Assembly (NCBI GenBank): GCA_947471505.1
Contig: CANIWM010000037.1
Coordinates: 1 to 54,175, forward strand
Direction: 5' to 3'
Length of the DNA stretch: 54,175 nucleotides
DNA from: Chthoniobacteraceae bacterium
GTDB lineage: Bacteria; Verrucomicrobiota; Verrucomicrobiia; Chthoniobacterales; Chthoniobacteraceae
The notes under the pieces are model-generated. The model did no database searches and had not been told where the DNA came from. It saw only the letters and a program-made list of their open reading frames with translations. Made by a program: the position numbers and the translations under genes. Positions 36,040-46,832 of this stretch are shown piece after piece (positions within the stretch are counted from its first letter, which is position 1; each line of letters starts with the position of its first letter).

Positions 36040-39000
36040 TTATGCCTGACGGCGGCGGCGGAAGAGGAGCGTGCCGCCAAGCACGAGCAGCGCTGCGCTG
36101 CCGGGCTCTGGGACAACAGTAATACTTCCATCGACTCCGACGTTGGAAATGTCCCAAGCCAATCCGGGGTCTAGTGTCGGCATTATTCCTTGAGTCAACG
36201 TCCCCGAGAAGGTCGCTGCGTCGAAGAGGTCGAAGGTATCTCCCTGAACCAGCGCGGAGCCTGTTGCTGTGACGTTGAGCGTTCCACCCAGTGTCAGGGT
36301 TGTTCCAATAGTATTAACGAACACTTCATCATTAGTCAAAGTGACGCCCGTTTTATTGATGTCGAACTGCGCGATTGCCGCTGCGAGCGTCAGATTGTTG
36401 GAGAAAGTCAGTGCTCCGATGCTCGTGCTCGTGTTCGGGGAGAGTGTTCCGGCGATGCTCATATTCCCAACGACGGTGCCTATACCTTTCAGCGTCTGAG
36501 CCGCGCCGAGCGTGTATCCACCGGCGACGCCCGAAACGTCGAATGTCGTATTGGTATGCACATCGATATTCGCCGATCCGGAGAGAGAGCCAGTAAGCGT
36601 AACGGTTCCAGCCTGAATTGTCGTGTCTCCATTGTAGGTGTTGTTTCCAGCGAGAACGAGGTTTCCGCCTCCAACTTTGACAACGCCACCGGCTGTTGCG
36701 CCGGTATTTACGATATTCACTTGGGCGGCAGCCGTGCCAAGCGTAAGCGTTCCGGTGACATCAAATGTCCGGTCTGCACCATTCACGTCGAACTGAGCCC
36801 GTGGCTCTACTTGAGCATTCACGCGAGTCACAGTGGTGGTGCCGGTAGTGGTCACGTTTCCACTCAGGATAATCGAACTGCCTTGCGACCCAGCGGTAAT
36901 AGCACTTGGACCTTGGTTTAGATTAATAGCAGCCCCGGCGATGTGCAGCCCTCCAGAGCCCACCAAGAGTCGGCTAATGACCCCGGTGCTTCCGCCATCG
37001 AGTTCAAGCGTGGAACCACTCGCGAATGTGAAAGAAGCAGCCGAAAGGCTCCCGCCACGCGATAGGTGCGCGCGCCCGCCATTCGCGGCAAACGCACCGC
37101 TGACAGTGAACGGTATTGCATCGCCGCGCCCCGAAAGGAAGACGCCACTGTTCAGGGTGACACTCGCGACAGTGTCAAAAATACCGGCCGTTGGCGCTGC
37201 TTCCGTATTTCCAGCACCGGACCCAAAAGTGCCTCCATTGATGGTTACGCTCGCCGTATCGAGAATATGGTCCGCCAATTGTCCCGCAGTGGTTCCGTAT
37301 GCCACCGTCCCCCCAGCTTCGACGAAAAGATTCCCTCCAATTGCGTCCACAGCAGTGGTCTTTGAAAGAACCAATGTTCCTCCAGTGACGGTCGTATTAC
37401 CGCTGTAAGTATTGGCGGTTGCACCGCTCAGCACCGCAGTTCCAGGCCCGGTTTTTGTAACGGCCCCCGTCCCAACGATCGCGTTTGCCGCAGTCGCGGT
37501 AAAAGCAGTTGCCGTGTTGAATGTCAGCGTCGCGTTGTTGGTAATCAGCCCAGTTCCCGTGCTACCAGCCAGCGTTCCGTCGCCGACTTGAAGCGTGCCC
37601 GCAGAAATCGTCGTGCTCGAAGGATTGTTTCCCGCCGCGGTGAGAACAGCAGTGCCCGCACCGGAATTCGTCAGGGCTGATGTTACATTTCCTGCGAGGG
37701 TTGTGGTGCCAGCACCGGACACAACAGCGCCGACTGGACCGCCAATGGTGCCCGATACAGTCATCGCGCCGCTGTTTGCGAGAGTGACGGTATCATTTGC
37801 GGTAACATTGCCCGATACGGTCAAAGTGCCTGCATTTTCCAAAGTGAGCGGGGCTCCCGCTGTAATGGCCCCAGCCAGTGTTAGGGTTGAACCGACAAGA
37901 ACATGAACCCTACCTCCTCCGGTGTTGGCATCGATCGTCCGATTTGCGCTACCAGTGGCACCCGTAAACTCAAGAGTTCCTCCGTTTTTAACGATGACTG
38001 AGGTTCCCGCACCCAGAGCGCTATTCACGCCGCCGTCTGCGACGGTGTTCACGCTGACGGTGCCTGTATCAATGGAAACCGGCCCTGTGAAACTGTTCAC
38101 GTTGCTGATGGTCACTTTCCCGTTTTTCGTCTTCACGAGACCCGTCGTTCCGGTGATGGCAAATGCGCCGCTCAGAGTATAATTCTTAGCCGATGTGTTA
38201 TCGAAGACGACACTGGTTGGAGCGACGTTTTCAGCGACATCAACCGTGGTATTGGCAGTCGCGGTATCGTCGAAAAGAACGTTATCTCCAGCGATATAGT
38301 CGGTTGTCCCGGATGCTACAACGAGATTCCAGTTGTTTGCTCCGGCAGGCTGAGTAGTCCATAGCGAATTGTTCGCGCCCGACCATTTTGGTGCGTCCAC
38401 AGCCGAGATATTAAGCTCAATTCGGGTGTCTGTCGTATTATTATTGAGGGTCGCCACAATTCGAGGATTCGGCAATGTTCCCAGCTTAAACGCAGCGAAG
38501 CCGGTGCCGCCGATCGTTCCATCGTAATTAATGATGGTGCGAACTCCAACGGCGGGCAGCGCCGTGGTAAGATTCAACGTGACAACATTCACTCCGGTGC
38601 CGTCGCCATTGGTGACGAGGCCACCTACGCCGGTTACGTTAATCGCTGGATTATTTGCGTCAGGAGCCGCGAGTGCGGCGAAATTCACGGTCGCCGTATC
38701 CGTCGCCGCCGCTCCAAAAGTCAGGCCTGCTAACGTCAACGTGCCCCCAGGGTTCAGGATTGCTGCATTACCTACTGTAGTCGCGCCGGCGACTGTTCCT
38801 CCGCCTGAGAGCGTCGTCGCAGCGGCAATTGCGAGTGGACCTGCCAGCGATCCGCTCAGGGCGAGCGAACCTCCGCTAAGGGTCGTCGTTCCGGTATAGC
38901 TATTGGCCCCCGCGAGGGAGAGCTTTCCTGCTCCGCTTTTTGTAATGCCAAATCCTCCCGATACAGCGCCGGAGATGGTCACGTCCGCAGCATTATTGAC

Positions 39001-40950
39001 CGTCGCATTGCCAGTCAGCGTCCCTGTCGTGAAGCTGGCCTTGTAGGCGTTCGCTCCGTTCACAACGAGTGCAGCGGAGCCGAGCGTCAAACTTCCGAGT
39101 GCAAAAGTATTGCCTGTGTCGATGCCGCTCACGCGGTCCAAATCAATCGTCCCTCCGCCTGCCCCGATGGTAATATTGTTCCCGTAAGCGAGCGTAGCGT
39201 CCGATCCGGTGCCGTTATCGTTGAGCCGGAGAAATCCACCGTCCAGACTAACGGATCCAGTCCCGAGTGTTTTGCCGGTCGTTGCGGGAACATTACTCAG
39301 GCGCTGCCCGGAAGCGACGTTGAACGCACCGCTGAAATCATTCGTCGTGTTAGTAAGAATCAACGCCTTCGTTCCGGCGTTCGCTGTCGCTCCTCCGAGC
39401 ACCGCAAGAGCGCTGGAACCGGAGAGTTTGCCAGAAATCGTGATACTCTGGTTGGTCGTAGGGGTCGTGTAGCTAATCAGCGTCGCAGAGGAATCCGCCG
39501 TCACGTTGATAGCTCCGGCGAAGACTCCGGCATCACCAGAACGTGTCCCTAGGTTGCCGCCCGCGAGCGTCAAACCGCTCGCCAAGGTCACGTTTCTCAC
39601 GGCGACGCGACTTCCTGCGTTCGCGGTGATCGAGGATGCCGTGTAGGTCGCGTTGGCGAGGTTCACTTCCAAAGTGGCACCAGTATTCACGACGACAGCA
39701 CCCGTCCCCAGTGCTCCATTGGCAGTGGCTTCCAAAATACCGCCGTTAATCGTCGTCCCCGTGGAGAATGTGCTTGTTCCACTCAGAGTCGCCCGCCCGG
39801 CACCAGTCTTCAGCAACCCTGTCCCGCCCACGCTGATCGCTCCGCTGACCGTGATTTGGCCGCTAGTTCCATTCAGAGTTGCTGCACCAACCGTCGTCAA
39901 CGACGCGAACGTCGCAGCACCGGCTCCAGTTACCGAAATCGTGCCAGCACCACTGCTCGTAACAGCACCGACCGCTGTCGTGCCTGCGCCGTTAATGGTG
40001 AGAGTGTTCCCTGCGAGTTCGGTCGCGCCGAGGGTCAAGGCGGTGCTCGCTGCGGCGGCTAAGGTCGCCCCTCCGGTGAGCGTGGTGGCGCCAAACGCGA
40101 CGCCGCCAATTCCCGCTCCTGTGATTCCCGCCCCGCGAGCGATCGTGAGCGTCTGCCCACCGATATTCAAAGTGCCAAGCGTATGCGTGGTGTTTGTGGC
40201 CGCCGCAGTTGCACGGTTGCTGGTAATCGTTGTATCTGCCGTCACCGTCGTCGGCCGATTAAATGCAAGCCCTGTATCGTTGAGCAATTCAAGGCCGCCA
40301 CCCGCGAGTGTCAGGTTTCCAGCGCCGAGCGCACCGGCATTACCCGATGCCCGGAGATTTCCGGCTGTCACAGTGAGCCCGCCGGAAAACGAATTGGCCG
40401 CGCTGAGGGCGAGCGTTCCCGCTCCTGTTTTATTGAGCGATTGAGAACCGGTCTCGCGAATAATTCCGCCGATCGAAAGCACGTTGGCGGCAACGTCCAC
40501 ACTTCCGCTCGTATCCAGTTGCAACTGAAGGGTCTTCGCGCCGGTCCCCGTCCCCGTAACGGTGTATGCAATGTCCCCGACCGTGCTGATCAATGGAATG
40601 CCCGCACCACGGCCACCATTCAAAATAATATACATGTCACGCGACGTGCTCTGATTCGCTAAAGTCACGGCCGCTGCGCTATTAAACTGCAAATCCTGAA
40701 TCGTAGTCGTACCCAAGGTCGCGGTCGGATTAAAACCAGCCGCCGATCCACGAACATCCATAGTGCCGGTCGCAGCAATGATCGCGTTATCCGAAGCCGT
40801 CGGAATCGCCGTTGTGGACCATGCCGCAGCAGTTGCCCAAGCCGGACTTGCGCCCGTAATTGTGTCGGCTGCACCGCGAATGTAAACCGGAGCCGCGATG
40901 ATCGCTATGATACTTACGGACAGAATACTTCTTGAAGGTTTGTGTTTCAT
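36040..40950 (-). CDS. Giant autotransporter-associated beta-strand repeat protein with PEP-CTERM signal
   Basis: 1636 residues from ATG 40950. Signal peptide (MKHKPSRSILSVSIIAIIAAPVYIRGA). The body consists of many passenger-type repeats of the pattern LTKxGxGTLxLxGxNxYxGxTxxxxGxL, for example GAGTLALSAANSFSGGLTV, GAGKLSLAGANSYTGTTTL, GNLVLAGNNTYNGDTTI. Such repeats form beta-helices. It ends in ITVVPEPGSAALLVLGG, a hydrophobic stretch and RRRRQA, a PEP-CTERM sorting signal instead of an outer-membrane beta-barrel, so it is anchored by the exosortase route. The codon choice looks less GC-rich than in its neighbours. It is probably a surface adhesin or matrix protein; no enzyme motif seen. 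Confidence 0.9.
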   Translation of the reverse strand: MKHKPSRSILSVSIIAIIAAPVYIRGAADTITGASPAWATAAAWSTTAIPTASDNAIIAATGTMDVRGSAAGFNPTATLGTTTIQDLQFNSAAAVTLANQSTSRDMYIILNGGRGAGIPLISTVGDIAYTVTGTGTGAKTLQLQLDTSGSVDVAANVLSIGGIIRETGSQSLNKTGAGTLALSAANSFSGGLTVTAGNLRASGNAGALGAGNLTLAGGGLELLNDTGLAFNRPTTVTADTTITSNRATAAATNTTHTLGTLNIGGQTLTIARGAGITGAGIGGVAFGATTLTGGATLAAAASTALTLGATELAGNTLTINGAGTTAVGAVTSSGAGTISVTGAGAATFASLTTVGAATLNGTSGQITVSGAISVGGTGLLKTGAGRATLSGTSTFSTGTTINGGILEATANGALGTGAVVVNTGATLEVNLANATYTASSITANAGSRVAVRNVTLASGLTLAGGNLGTRSGDAGVFAGAINVTADSSATLISYTTPTTNQSITISGKLSGSSALAVLGGATANAGTKALILTNTTNDFSGAFNVASGQRLSNVPATTGKTLGTGSVSLDGGFLRLNDNGTGSDATLAYGNNITIGAGGGTIDLDRVSGIDTGNTFALGSLTLGSAALVVNGANAYKASFTTGTLTGNATVNNAADVTISGAVSGGFGITKSGAGKLSLAGANSYTGTTTLSGGSLALSGSLAGPLAIAAATTLSGGGTVAGATTVGNAAILNPGGTLTLAGLTFGAAATDTATVNFAALAAPDANNPAINVTGVGGLVTNGDGTGVNVVTLNLTTALPAVGVRTIINYDGTIGGTGFAAFKLGTLPNPRIVATLNNNTTDTRIELNISAVDAPKWSGANNSLWTTQPAGANNWNLVVASGTTDYIAGDNVLFDDTATANTTVDVAENVAPTSVVFDNTSAKNYTLSGAFAITGTTGLVKTKNGKVTISNVNSFTGPVSIDTGTVSVNTVADGGVNSALGAGTSVIVKNGGTLEFTGATGSANRTIDANTGGGRVHVLVGSTLTLAGAITAGAPLTLENAGTLTVSGNVTANDTVTLANSGAMTVSGTIGGPVGAVVSGAGTTTLAGNVTSALTNSGAGTAVLTAAGNNPSSTTISAGTLQVGDGTLAGSTGTGLITNNATLTFNTATAFTATAANAIVGTGAVTKTGPGTAVLSGATANTYSGNTTVTGGTLVLSKTTAVDAIGGNLFVEAGGTVAYGTTAGQLADHILDTASVTINGGTFGSGAGNTEAAPTAGIFDTVASVTLNSGVFLSGRGDAIPFTVSGAFAANGGRAHLSRGGSLSAASFTFASGSTLELDGGSTGVISRLLVGSGGLHIAGAAINLNQGPSAITAGSQGSSIILSGNVTTTGTTTVTRVNAQVEPRAQFDVNGADRTFDVTGTLTLGTAAAQVNIVNTGATAGGVVKVGGGNLVLAGNNTYNGDTTIQAGTVTLTGSLSGSANIDVHTNTTFDVSGVAGGYTLGAAQTLKGIGTVVGNMSIAGTLSPNTSTSIGALTFSNNLTLAAAIAQFDINKTGVTLTNDEVFVNTIGTTLTLGGTLNVTATGSALVQGDTFDLFDAATFSGTLTQGIMPTLDPGLAWDISNVGVDGSITVVPEPGSAALLVLGGTLLFRRRRQA

Positions 40951-41159
40951 CTCTGGTGGATTTCTTTGGTTATTGGAATATTGACGGACTAAAGGCCCCT
41001 GATACCTCCCGCGCACGAAATTACTTGAAATCTACCGGAAGACAGGTCGAGGGCAAAATTGATTGGATGCTTGCTCCGACGAGTCGCTGTTTTCCCTATG
41101 ATTTGCAACGCTAAAGATGCCAAAAAATCGTCATATCCTCGCGACGAACGGCAACTCCG

Positions 41160-42590: not shown

Positions 42591-43991
42591 ATGCACATCC
42601 GCGACCTTTCACCAGAGCAGAAAAAATCCGGCCTCGCCGCTTGGCTGGGCTGGATGTTCGACGGGCTGGACATGCACATTTACACGCTCGTCGGCACGCT
42701 CTTCGTGGCCATCCTTGTGTTTGGGCCGCAGACGACGGACGGCTTTCAAAAGCTGGACCTCAACAGCGACGGGCGCATCACCGCTGCCGAGTGGGTCTCC
42801 ACGGAATCGCTCGCCATCGCCGACCGCAATCTCGACGGCGCGATTGACCGCGAGGAGTTCGATGTGTTCGCCGCGAAGTCGCACAAGGGCGACGAGAAGG
42901 CGCTCATTGACCAGCGCGCGAGCTGGATACAGGCGTCGTTCCTCATCGGCTGGGCGGTCGGCGGCGCATTCTTCGGGCGGATCGGCGACTTGCTGGGCCG
43001 CGCACGGGCGCTCTCGTTCACGGTGCTGACATACGCGATTTTCACCGGGCTCTCTTTCATCGCGACGGAGTGGTGGCACTTGCTCATCTTCCGCTTTCTC
43101 GCCGCGCTGGGCATCGGCGGAGAATGGGCCGTCGGCTCCACACTGCTCGCGGAGACTTGGCCAAAAGAATGGCGTCCGTGGACAGCGGCGGTGCTCCAGA
43201 CCGGTGTAAATATCGGCGTCCTCATCGCGTGCGGCGCGGGCTACTTACTCGGCGGGCATCATCCGAAATGGATTTTCCTCATCGGCGTCGCCCCGGCGCT
43301 GCTCGTGTTCTGGATTCGCAGCCACGTCCCCGAGCCCGCAGCTTGGTCGGCAGCGCAGACGGGCGGCGCGAAGCCCGGCGTCCTCGACCTCTTCCGTGGA
43401 GAGACGCGCCGTATCACGCTCCCGAGCATCGGCGTCTGCGCCTTCTCGCTCACCGGCTGGTGGGCATTTATGTTTTGGCAGACGCAGCATGTCCGGCGTC
43501 TTGGAGAGCTAAGCGGACTGAGCGGGAAGGAGATCGGCGAGCTCGTCACCACCGGCTTCGCCCTCGTCATCGGCATCAGTATCATCGGGAATTTCGTCGC
43601 CGGCGGGCTGGCGAAAAAATGGGGCTATAAGCCGGCGCTCGTCGCTATGTTTGCAGGCTTCGTCGTCACCATGTTCGGCGCGTTCCGTGTTCCCCATGAG
43701 CTTGGGCCGCTCGTCTATTTCTGGCTGCCAGCGGTGGGCTTTTGGAGCGGAGTGTTCGGCCTGTTCACCATGATGCTCCCGCCGCTTTTTCCCACGCTCC
43801 TGCGGACGACGGGCGCGGGCTTTTGCTATAACATCGGGCGCATCGCAGCCGCCATCGGCACGGTGTTCGCCGCATCCATCACGAAAGGCGGCGACTACCG
43901 CACCACTTTGCTTTACGACGGCTTCCTCTTCATCCCCGCCATCCTCTTCGCGCTCGCACTTCCGCTGAAAGAAGCCCCGGAGGAAAAATGA
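42591..43991 (+). CDS. MFS transporter with two EF-hands inserted after the first membrane helix
   Basis: 466 residues. Normal MFS features are helix 1 (WLGWMFDGLDMHIYTLVG), the loop motif GRIGDLLGRARAL, RFLAALGIGGEWAVGSTLLAE (as in sugar/aromatic-acid symporters) and twelve predicted helices. Unusual is a hydrophilic insert of about 60 residues between helices 1 and 2: two perfect EF-hand loops, DLNSDGRITAAE (residues 56-67) and DRNLDGAIDREE (78-89). By topology the insert is on the periplasmic side. It probably binds calcium and could gate transport or bind a ligand; the substrate is unknown. It is followed by a helical protein gene and dctA on the same strand. Confidence 0.88.
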   Translation: MHIRDLSPEQKKSGLAAWLGWMFDGLDMHIYTLVGTLFVAILVFGPQTTDGFQKLDLNSDGRITAAEWVSTESLAIADRNLDGAIDREEFDVFAAKSHKGDEKALIDQRASWIQASFLIGWAVGGAFFGRIGDLLGRARALSFTVLTYAIFTGLSFIATEWWHLLIFRFLAALGIGGEWAVGSTLLAETWPKEWRPWTAAVLQTGVNIGVLIACGAGYLLGGHHPKWIFLIGVAPALLVFWIRSHVPEPAAWSAAQTGGAKPGVLDLFRGETRRITLPSIGVCAFSLTGWWAFMFWQTQHVRRLGELSGLSGKEIGELVTTGFALVIGISIIGNFVAGGLAKKWGYKPALVAMFAGFVVTMFGAFRVPHELGPLVYFWLPAVGFWSGVFGLFTMMLPPLFPTLLRTTGAGFCYNIGRIAAAIGTVFAASITKGGDYRTTLLYDGFLFIPAILFALALPLKEAPEEK

Positions 43992-44027: not shown

Positions 44028-45128
44028 ATGCCACGCATCATCCGCTTCGCCGCACTCGTCGCCGCTCTCATCATTGTGGGATTGTGGTTCTTTCCTGCCG
44101 ACCGCAGCTCGAAGCCTTCCACCACCCGCGCCGAGGGCACCGGCAAAAGCGCCGAGCCCAAGTCCCCCACCCTTCCTCAAGACCTAGACACCTCACCAGC
44201 CGGTATGATCGCACAACTCTTCGAGCGCCTCCGCAACGGAACCTTCACCCCCGCAGACCTCGCCGCTTTGCGCGCCGCGCTCCTCGCCGCCGACCCCGAC
44301 GCGGCCATCGCCGCCATCACCGCATTCCTCGCCACCGGGCAGGACGCCAATACCGGCGAACGCTTCGGCCTCGGCGAAGGCGGCGCACTCTCCGGCGCAC
44401 CCACCATGCGCGTCCTCCTCCTCGATCTCCTCGGGCGCATCTGCAAAAAATCCGGCAGCCCCGCCGCCGCAGCCCTCGCCCGCTCGCTCATGGAGCGCAA
44501 AACCTCCGCCGACGAATGGGCCATCGCCCTCCGCAACGTCGGCTGGAGCACGCCCGGCGAAACCACCTACATGGCCGGGAAAATGCGAGAGATGCTCCGC
44601 TACGAAGCCTGGCGCAGACAGCCCAGCGGCGGCTTCCTCGAAACCTTCGACGTCATCGTTTTCCTCCGCGACGCATCCTTCACCGCAGACCTCCAGCAAC
44701 TCGTCACCGGCGAAGACAAGGCCCTCCAACGCGCCGCCGCCATCGCCATGGATCGGCTCGCCGAACTGAACCCGCTCGACGTGATGAACTACCTCAACAC
44801 CAACCCCGCCGAATTCAGCGCCAAGCCCATGCTCCGCGCCGACTACTTCGCCAAAGCCGACTTCTCCCAGCTCGCCCAGCGCCAAGCCGTCGAGACCTAT
44901 CTCTCCCGCCTCGACGTGGAGAACGGCGAGAAAAACAAACTCATCAACGGCATCGCCGCGCCCGGCAGTTTCGCCGCCGAAAACCTCCTCACCGCGCCGC
45001 CCCCGGAAGACGACCCGCCGCAGAAAGTCGAAGGTCTCCGTAAGACCGTAGGCGACTGGATCAAAGACAACCGCTACCCCGTCCTCCTCCCGTCCCTCCT
45101 CCAGCTCCAAGCCCGGCTCGCAGAGTAA
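44028..45128 (+). CDS. Membrane-anchored helical (HEAT-like) protein of unknown function
   Basis: 366 residues. N-terminal membrane helix (IIRFAALVAALIIVGLWFF), a Ser/Lys/Pro linker, then Ala/Leu-rich helical pairs (FTPADLAALRAALLAADPDAAIAAI, LLLDLLGRICKKSGSPAA, ALQRAAAIAMDRLAELNP) in the style of HEAT or TPR arrays. No catalytic motif. It lies 36 bases after the MFS gene and its TAA is directly followed by the ATG of dctA, so the three genes form an operon; a support role for the transporters is possible. Confidence 0.7.
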   Translation: MPRIIRFAALVAALIIVGLWFFPADRSSKPSTTRAEGTGKSAEPKSPTLPQDLDTSPAGMIAQLFERLRNGTFTPADLAALRAALLAADPDAAIAAITAFLATGQDANTGERFGLGEGGALSGAPTMRVLLLDLLGRICKKSGSPAAAALARSLMERKTSADEWAIALRNVGWSTPGETTYMAGKMREMLRYEAWRRQPSGGFLETFDVIVFLRDASFTADLQQLVTGEDKALQRAAAIAMDRLAELNPLDVMNYLNTNPAEFSAKPMLRADYFAKADFSQLAQRQAVETYLSRLDVENGEKNKLINGIAAPGSFAAENLLTAPPPEDDPPQKVEGLRKTVGDWIKDNRYPVLLPSLLQLQARLAE

Positions 45129-46394
45129 ATGGCACCTTCCACTCCAGCGCCGCGCCGCCCGTGGTATCGCATCCTCTACGTGCAAGTCATCATCGCCGTG
45201 CTCGTCGGCGTCGCGGTCGGGTTCTATTGGCCGGACGCCGGGAAGTCACTCAAGCCCCTCGGCGATGGGTTTGTGAAGCTCGTCAAAATGATGATCGGCC
45301 CGATCATCTTCTGCACCGTCGTCCACGGCATCGCGTCCGTTGGCGACATCAAGAAACTGGGCCGCGTCGGCGTGAAAGCGCTGCTCTACTTTGAAGTCGT
45401 CTCCACGCTGGCGCTCATCATCGGGCTCGTCGTGGTGAACGTGCTCAAGCCCGGCGTCGGCATCTCGTTTCACGCCGACGCTGCCGCAGTCAGCGCCAGC
45501 GCGGGGCTTTCAGAAAAAGCCCACGCCCTCAGCACCACGGAGTTTATCCTCAATATCATCCCCAGCACATTTCTCGGCGCATTCGTCTCGGGCGACTTGC
45601 TGCAAGTGCTACTCGTCTCCCTCCTCGTCGCGCTCGCAGTGGCGATGATGGGAGAGCGGGGACGCCCCGTCCTGCATGTGATTGAATCCGCCGGGCAAGT
45701 CTTCTTCGGCGTGATGCAGCTCGTCGTCAAAGTCGCCCCTCTTGGCGCGTTCGGCGCGATGGCATACACCGTCGGCGCGCACGGCATCGGCTCGCTGAAA
45801 AATCTGCTCGGGCTGATGCTCGGCTTTTACCTCACCGCAGGACTCTTCGTCGTCTTCGTGCTTGGCAGTATCGCCCGCTGGTGCGGGTTCTCCATCTTCC
45901 GCTTCCTCGCCTACATCAAAGACGAACTCCTCCTCGTCCTCGGCACCAGTTCCTCCGAGACGGCACTCCCCGGCCTTATCGAAAAGATGCAGCGCCTCGG
46001 CTGCTCCAAGTCCACCGTCGGGCTCGTGGTGCCCACCGGCTACAGCTTCAACCTCGACGGCACCAACATCTACATGGCGATGGCCGCAGTGTTCCTCGCC
46101 CAAGCCACCAACACCCCGCTCGATCTGCCCCATCAAATCAGCCTCCTCGTCATCGCCATGATCACCTCCAAAGGCGCAAGCGGCGTCACCGGCGCAGGCT
46201 TCATCACACTCGCCGCGACGCTCCAAGCCGTCCCCGGCATCCCCATCGAATCCCTCGCCCTCCTCGTCGGCATCGACCGCTTTATGAGCGAATGCCGGGC
46301 GCTCACAAACTTCATCGGCAACGGCGTCGCCACAGTAGCCATCAGCCGTTGGGAAAAAGAAGTGACGCCCGAGCAACTGCGCGCCCGACTTTAG
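45129..46394 (+). CDS. dctA: Dicarboxylate/amino acid:cation symporter (DctA/GltP family)
   Basis: 421 residues. The family motifs are all present: [41 protein letters not shown] (serine-rich hairpin 1), [23 protein letters not shown] (helix 7 with NMDGT-type NLDGT), [21 protein letters not shown] (hairpin 2) and [20 protein letters not shown]. It imports C4-dicarboxylates or acidic amino acids with protons or sodium. The gene begins immediately after the stop of the previous gene. The exact substrate is not decided by sequence; the order with a sugar-type MFS gene points to organic-acid uptake. Confidence 0.92.
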
Positions 46395-46454: not shown

Positions 46455-46832
46455 GGACGTCCGCTTGCCGTTCCGGGATGTCCGCCAGCGACGAGAGGAT
46501 GTCCGCTAGCCTAAAGAGGACGTCCCCCAGCGACGGGAGGACGTCCGCTAGCCTAAAGAGGACGTCCGCCAACGACGGGAGGACGTCTCCCAGCGACGGG
46601 AGGATGTCCGCCAACCACGGGAGGATGTCCGCCAGCGACGGGAGGACGTCCGCCAACCACGGGAGGACGTCCGCCAACCACGGGAGGACGTCCGCCAACC
46701 ACGGGAGGACGTCCGCCAACCACGGGAGGACGTCCGCCAACCACGGGAGGATGTCCGCCAGCGACGGGAGGACGTCCGCCAACCACGGGAGGATGTCCGC
46801 CAGCGACGGGAGGATGTCCGCCAGCCACACGC
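46455..46832. repeat. Tandem array, 18 units of exactly 21 bp
   Basis: Every unit begins GGAYGTCCGC or GGAYGTCYCC (Y = C/T) followed by an 11-base variable part (AACCACGGGA, CAGCGACGGGA, TAGCCTAAAGA types). 18 x 21 = 378 bases without a single indel. The central units (about 46608-46800) are almost identical, the outer ones diverged, as in arrays that grow by slippage from the middle. All three minus frames and one plus frame are open through it; in one minus frame it reads (W/S)LAD(V/I)LP repeats. Confidence 0.92.

Follow-up and report, generated by a model that had tools for sequence, protein, structure and literature searches.

The window (the whole stretch of DNA analysed here, 54,175 nucleotides) contains a gene for an MFS transporter in which an EF-hand domain is inserted between the helices TM1 and TM2. 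The gene and its neighbours are given below. Carriers are the 11 genomes, this one included, whose transporter has the insert; their flanks were examined for at most about 4 kb, and for less where a contig ends.

41160..42482, minus strand: PQQ_2 beta-propeller protein (Pfam), divergent and upstream; not found in the examined flanks of the other carriers
42591..43991, plus strand: MFS transporter gene with EF-hand insert, an ORF of 466 aa (Pfam profiles, AF2 model)
44028..45128, plus strand: downstream ORF, unmatched in Pfam at E <= 0.001; in the examined carrier flanks it lies beside the MFS gene in G006 and G009 only
45129..46394, plus strand: sodium:dicarboxylate symporter (SDF); among the examined carrier flanks, in place in G006 only

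No neighbour is common to all carriers within the examined flanks, and a conserved partner gene for the clade was rejected. Elsewhere in the window, the minus strand at 36040-41016 encodes a 1658-aa repetitive passenger-like protein with, by eye, a PEP-CTERM-like sorting tail at its end. A tandem array at 46476-46828 consists of 16.8 copies of 21-bp units and is open in several frames.

The product of 42591-43991 matches MFS_1 with an E-value of 8.4e-29 (101 bits against a cut-off of 33.4) and Sugar_tr with 83.1 bits against 22.3, and all 57 rows of the alignment A2 have an MFS match at E <= 0.001 (Pfam). The main landmarks of the fold around the insert are:

42612..42719, plus strand: TM1 (residues 8-43), with a DGLD motif at residues 24-27, from the AF2 secondary structure
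42888..42995, plus strand: TM2 (residues 100-135), from the AF2 model; three residues link it to the last helix of the insert (87-96)
42975..43001, plus strand: MFS motif A, GRIGDLLGR (residues 129-137), in the TM2-TM3 loop, from the sequence

D24, G25, L26 and D27 of TM1 are invariant in all 57 rows of A2. We take GRIGDLLGR to be motif A of the MFS, on the cytoplasmic side; from this motif and the MFS fold, both established knowledge, the TM1-TM2 insert presumably lies on the periplasmic side. A rough positive-inside count is uninformative (7 K/R per 60 cytoplasmic loop residues versus 3 per 29 periplasmic ones). The best curated profiles include TIGR00895 (E 2.1e-33), NF003024 (E 8.2e-30) and TIGR00891 (E 8.2e-28). 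An acidic DGxD motif in TM1 is presumably common to the transporter and the sialate:H+ and aromatic acid:H+ symporter families. The transporter differs from these symporters (TIGR00895, TIGR00891, NF003024) in having the EF-hand insert and in falling far below all their cut-offs, with 115.8 bits against 418.55 for TIGR00895 and 97.6 bits against 552.9 for TIGR00891 (NCBIfam). It is probably an inner-membrane MFS secondary transporter and, going by the nearest profiles, a proton-coupled organic-anion symporter; with those curated models so far below cut-off, the organic anion as substrate is a guess.

The EF-hand insert and its predicted structure

The inserted domain has two EF-hand loops:

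42723..42881, plus strand: inserted EF-hand domain (residues 45-97), with pLDDT blocks of about 87-95 in the AF2 full-length model
42756..42791, plus strand: EF-hand loop 1, DLNSDGRITAAE (residues 56-67), by Pfam; 10 of the 11 carriers keep its ligands intact
42822..42857, plus strand: EF-hand loop 2, DRNLDGAIDREE (residues 78-89); all 11 carriers share D78, N80, D82 and E89

In Pfam, EF-hand_5 matches the transporter with 35 bits (E 8.2e-9), its cut-off being 25.9, and EF-hand_1 with 26.3 bits against 25.4. A sequence-only reading of this DNA had placed EF-hand loops in the first periplasmic loop, and Pfam and AF2 bear this out, with loops at 56-67 and 78-89, each holding the expected ligands, between TM1 and TM2. 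That reading also spoke of a pair of canonical EF-hands, which holds for each loop by itself but not for their arrangement: the loops are 10 residues apart (8-13 across the 10 carriers whose two hands are intact), and the EF-hand-pair profile EF-hand_7 stays below its cut-off (18.7 versus 30 bits). The insert is thus not a classical calmodulin-type EF-hand pair.

A structure prediction, which had been proposed as a check, models the insert confidently within a full-length AlphaFold2 model built on the 57 sequences of A2 (mean pLDDT 90.4, pTM 0.88). The model has a 12-helix MFS fold, and its recognised PDB matches, among those listed, are MFS structures. In it, helix E1 (45-55) begins one residue past TM1, each EF loop contributes one three-residue strand (62-64 and 84-86), the pattern of paired EF loops, the two loops are separated by a short helix (72-75), and helix 87-96 ends three residues ahead of TM2. 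With junctions as short as those at its two ends, the module is predicted to be welded between TM1 and TM2, the two helices of the N-domain that make up half of the periplasmic gate. Folded alone from 8 sequences, the insert forms similar elements, less surely than in the full-length model (pLDDT 72, pTM 0.55). The PDB matches listed for this isolated model belong to EF-hand proteins, often in the Ca2+-loaded state, and include lanmodulin (rmsd 2.5, Foldseek); the calmodulin N-lobe is the best (Z 8.4, rmsd 2.7, 71 residues aligned), and S100 proteins are also matched. These structural matches are middling, with one chain at Z >= 8 and every Foldseek E-value above 0.001. A PDB search with the sequence profile of the insert brings up calcium-binding proteins and lanmodulin, with a best E-value of 7.3e-11.

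The spacing of the loops raises the alternative of a lanthanide rather than a calcium site. In lanmodulin the spacing is 12-13 residues, versus about 25 in typical Ca2+-responsive proteins (PMC10232371, cited from an excerpt, as are all sources below), and lanmodulin is among the PDB matches of the insert by both sequence and fold. The 8-13 residues found here in 10 carriers would agree with such a site. However, Pro at position 2 is absent from every hand in the 11 sequences, the genome's other EF-hand proteins also include closely spaced pairs, and TIGR03075 (PQQ alcohol dehydrogenase) is unmatched at E <= 1e-50 in the 11 carrier genomes, at most 27 candidates per genome having been scored. 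These sequence features weaken the lanthanide link, and a lanthanide site seems very improbable.

Distribution, conservation and exchange of the module

How widespread the architecture is, a question raised by the sequence-only reading, can be stated for each taxonomic level. Some match to the transporter occurs in 89 of 97 relatives. Full-length matches with the insert come from all 10 genomes of the window's genus (its own included) and from G020, one of five genomes of another genus of the family. In the family search (40 genomes), 10 further members have an insert-free relative of the transporter at E <= 1e-60 and 19 have no relative by the same criterion; searching 213 genomes of the order added no insert carriers. 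The class (384 genomes) and phylum (387 genomes) searches were samples with local matches and at most four candidates scored per genome. In them the matches of non-carriers start no earlier than model position 97, which leaves most or all of the insert uncovered, and such a start means that this insert is absent, other inserts there being still possible. Loops were read at 144 loci, locus-less matches excluded, and gave 127 distinct rows, 11 with the insert and 116 without. A short loop had been taken to be normal at this place, and so it is among the relatives: the TM1-TM2 loop measures 8-17 aa in 107 of the 116 insert-free rows and 23 aa in the remaining nine, which are distant paralogues. 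The EF-hand motif tested is absent across the whole protein in all 116. In A2, EF-hand_5 matches 8 of the 57 rows (Pfam), equal to the number of insert carriers entered, and the insert-free relatives are 52-62% identical to the window protein. Since 116 of the 127 distinct rows do without it, the insert is, on this comparison, dispensable for basic transport. In a loop-free tree of the quick kind (117 rows; nine rows, L074, L093, L022, L023, L025, L026, L027, L028 and L029, were dropped), the carriers form one group with an SH-aLRT of 94, and one change of state is needed. The EF-hand module thus appears to have been acquired once in the clade.

Within the insert, conservation is concentrated on the metal ligands. 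At the eight ligand columns, which are positions 1, 3, 5 and 12 in each hand, the mean major-residue fraction in the 11 carriers is 0.94, compared with 0.54 at the other insert columns and 0.82 in the core; in 100,000 random draws of eight columns from the insert, the ligand value was never reached. Hand 2 is intact in all 11 carriers, each with Glu at position 12; hand 1 is intact in 10 and lost in L011 (genome G007). The dN/dS values (NG86) of seven chosen pairs, about 0.20-0.57 for the insert and about 0.05-0.29 for the core, include large dS in two pairs and are not leaned on. The EF-hand insert is genuine and not a chance match, given its presence in 11 species and the selective conservation of its metal ligands. 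Random loss among homologues and unconserved Asp/Glu positions had been named beforehand as the marks of a neutral insert. The sequences speak to the contrary: the insert is not neutral, because its presence tracks one clade and its ligands are conserved. From these ligands it is likely to bind Ca2+.

At E <= 0.001, EF-hand_5 has 12 matches in the window's genome. In the loci read, pairs occur in eight other EF-hand proteins: the loop starts lie at intervals of 19, 22, 23, 23 and 23 residues in five of them, compared with 22 for the transporter, and at intervals of 30-33 residues in three. Several of these proteins start, by eye, with an apparent signal peptide. This suggests that the insert resembles a module found in exported proteins of the same organism. 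In the genome loci L157-L168, also by eye, close-spaced EF-hand pairs are found in several proteins, two of them with YHYH-like stretches, and a sulfatase-like EF-hand protein has a wider-spaced pair. The module might be a spare exported domain in a permissive loop, an aid to stability or folding only, whose Ca2+ sites prevent unfolding or cutting while transport is unaffected. The similar close-spaced pairs in five of the eight proteins, the fast evolution of the insert and the relatives that manage without it would all agree with such a role, which is nevertheless rather improbable: the insert is kept in 11 of 11 clade members, and an exchange of the insert in one of them brought in another EF-hand module.

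That exchange is seen when L011:1492-2907 is compared with L006:1495-2874. The insert has been swapped as a unit, and the rest of the gene is about 95% identical. L011 is a mosaic, with about 90-98% DNA identity to L006 over residues 5-34 and 112-460 and 40-60% over residues 35-111. Identical bases number 46/48 (residues 5-20), 38/42 (21-34), 54/57 (112-130) and 84/90 (131-160) in the flanks, and 12/30 (35-44), 40/90 (45-77), 25/42 (78-92) and 27/51 (93-111) in the replaced stretch; the same dip appears in a DNA-only alignment. Because identity dips at the DNA level over residues 35-111, a frameshift as the source of the odd insert is ruled out, and the comparison indicates that the insert and the tip of TM1 were replaced as one unit. 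A two-junction MAG assembly error may lie behind the mosaic; against this, the L011 gene sits inside a 67.6-kb contig. No donor of the insert is found among the other ten carriers. The incoming unit has an intact hand 2, a degenerate hand 1 and a Cys pair (QCSNRC) adjoining the lost hand 1. That a replacement unit keeps hand 2 intact suggests that hand 2 is the important one.

The swap of the whole insert in L011, together with a fast-changing insert surface around ligands that are kept, would also suit a docking platform, in which Ca2+ just folds the module and the variable surface binds a species-specific periplasmic partner (a binding protein, an enzyme or an envelope polymer). A Ser/Thr kinase gene divergent from the transporter in 6 of 11 carriers could be read in the same way:

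L034:200-3067, L035:409-3210, L037:370-3297, L006:3001-4155, L010:2377-3540 and L011:228-1361: divergent Ser/Thr kinase genes

Two of the kinases were scanned. The long form in L034 matches F5/8 type C and, at a score below cut-off, DUF1349; the short one in L006 has no F5/8 type C or similar extra domain. In the window no kinase gene lies beside the transporter, and a Ser/Thr kinase is no general neighbour of it. The window without an adjoining kinase, the short kinase without an extra domain and the examined flanks without a neighbour common to all carriers weigh against docking, which we consider improbable.

A tentative calcium-dependent brace on the TM1/TM2 gate

In MFS proteins the extracellular gate is formed by TM1 and TM2 packed against TM7 and TM8 (PMC10643130). 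The reading preferred here, to which we give slightly less than an even chance, is that the insert braces the TM1/TM2 gate from the periplasmic side in a Ca2+-dependent way, with Ca2+ as a structural-allosteric cofactor. A compact two-site Ca2+-binding module would have been gained one time in the first periplasmic loop of an MFS transporter. At normal periplasmic Ca2+ both sites would be filled, and the folded module would hold the ends of TM1 and TM2 in place as a brace or lid. Joined almost linker-free to these helices, the filled module would fix their distance and angle, and in this way Ca2+ would become a cofactor of the gate. If Ca2+ were stripped, the module would loosen and transport would change. 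Site 2 would have the essential role and site 1 would support it. The anatomy of the insert and the selection on it are solid; that calcium has an effect on transport we infer.

Several points stand against the brace. The insert changes fast outside its ligands, which would be unusual in a finely tuned allosteric element; relatives exist without the insert, and hand 1 is lost in one carrier. In the models, the insert alone folds less surely and its structural matches are middling. Co-adaptation of gate and insert has no clear signal at position 37, in 16 clade-diagnostic substitutions or against seven control clades. Pro at position 37 (TM1) is absent in all 11 carriers, and in the 98 other rows it is present in 72 and absent in 26. 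Six of the 16 diagnostic substitutions lie at periplasmic ends, compared with 127 of 396 positions, with no specific gathering near the insert. Five of the 16 fall at 423-441 (TM11/TM12), compared with 4 of 8 in one control clade without EF-hands and 0-2 in the six others. A related EF-hand-free clade, with TM1-TM2 loops of 14-16 aa in L138, L141, L142, L156 and L153 and of 9 aa in its sixth member L143, shows diagnostic changes of its own at the periplasmic end of TM11-TM12.

EF-hand pairs often bind Ca2+ at uM or tighter, and tight-binding pairs would presumably stay filled in the periplasm. This bears on the alternative of a calcium sensor, which would have an affinity within the range of free Ca2+ found in soil and fresh water, from tens of uM up to mM, and whose occupancy would switch uptake, as in the SLC25 ATP-Mg/Pi carriers. 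EF-hand-regulated carriers are indeed known (PMC6283063), and the almost linkerless joining of the EF-hand pair to both gate helices in the AF2 model is consistent with switching; as the sites may stay filled, we hold a sensor to be quite unlikely. Unlikely as well is the claim that this is a Ca2+-gated bacterial secondary transporter, whose EF-hand module between TM1 and TM2 opens and closes the periplasmic gate with external Ca2+, arose once in the family and can be exchanged as a cassette between species. If Ca2+ sets the gate state, the transporter would be a natural, compact design of a metal-controlled MFS carrier, for which the insert-free relatives, 52-62% identical, are ready controls. 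A bacterial secondary transporter would then be tied directly to external calcium, and there would be a simple handle on how the TM1/TM2 gate is driven.

Comparison with known systems

The nearest solved structures to the transporter are those of SLC22 (OCT, OAT, URAT1) and SV2. Among the PDB matches listed for the full model the best are SV2A (Z 46.2, rmsd 2.8, 399 residues aligned), OCTN2 (Z 42.3, rmsd 2.5, 387 aligned) and URAT1 (Z 40.8, rmsd 2.9, 387 aligned). Like the transporter with its residues 45-97, SLC22 proteins have an extracellular domain between TM1 and TM2 (PMC10643130), and by this analogy a domain at that place is not unusual as such. Unlike the transporter, they are animal proteins; the OAT1 domain is glycosylated, and the excerpt of PMC10643130 does not mention EF-hands in it. 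SLC22 also has an intracellular four-helix domain between TM6 and TM7; the transporter model has helices at 250-257 and 264-268.

An EF-hand domain fused to a carrier and Ca2+ regulation are found in SLC25, in the ATP-Mg/Pi (SCaMC) and the aspartate/glutamate carriers (PMC6283063, PMC5369052). These belong to another carrier family, and the ATP-Mg/Pi carriers have four N-terminal EF-hands and a linker loop; the transporter has MFS profiles, an MFS fold and an internal insert, and not a mitochondrial carrier fold with an N-terminal EF-hand domain. Ferroportin and BbFpn offer a precedent for Ca2+ from outside as a cofactor in the MFS: there the carrier needs Ca2+ as an untransported cofactor that aids a conformational change (PMC6079014). 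Their Ca2+ site is made from the carrier's own residues (D39, Q99, N212 and E219 in human Fpn; PMC6079014), unlike the inserted module of the transporter.

Lanmodulin and the short-spaced EF-hand proteins of the same genome resemble the insert in having 12-residue loops close together. They differ from it in being free-standing or lying in proteins other than MFS carriers, and lanmodulin also in its Pro at position 2 and its lanthanide preference (PMC10232371). Verrucomicrobial EF-hand fusions are described with cNMP-binding, thioredoxin, cytochrome and sulfatase domains, MFS not being among those named in the excerpt (PMC7016017). Among the open-access papers viewed by title and start of abstract, no description of EF-hands inside an MFS loop was found. 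The statement of the sequence-only reading that a calcium-sensing secondary transporter of this build is undescribed agrees with this for the combination; it does not extend to calcium dependence in an MFS carrier, which is known from ferroportin (PMC6079014). What appears to be new is the EF-hand module inside the TM1-TM2 loop of an MFS protein, set beside the known EF-hand-regulated SLC25 carriers, the Ca2+-dependent ferroportin and the TM1-TM2 domain of SLC22.
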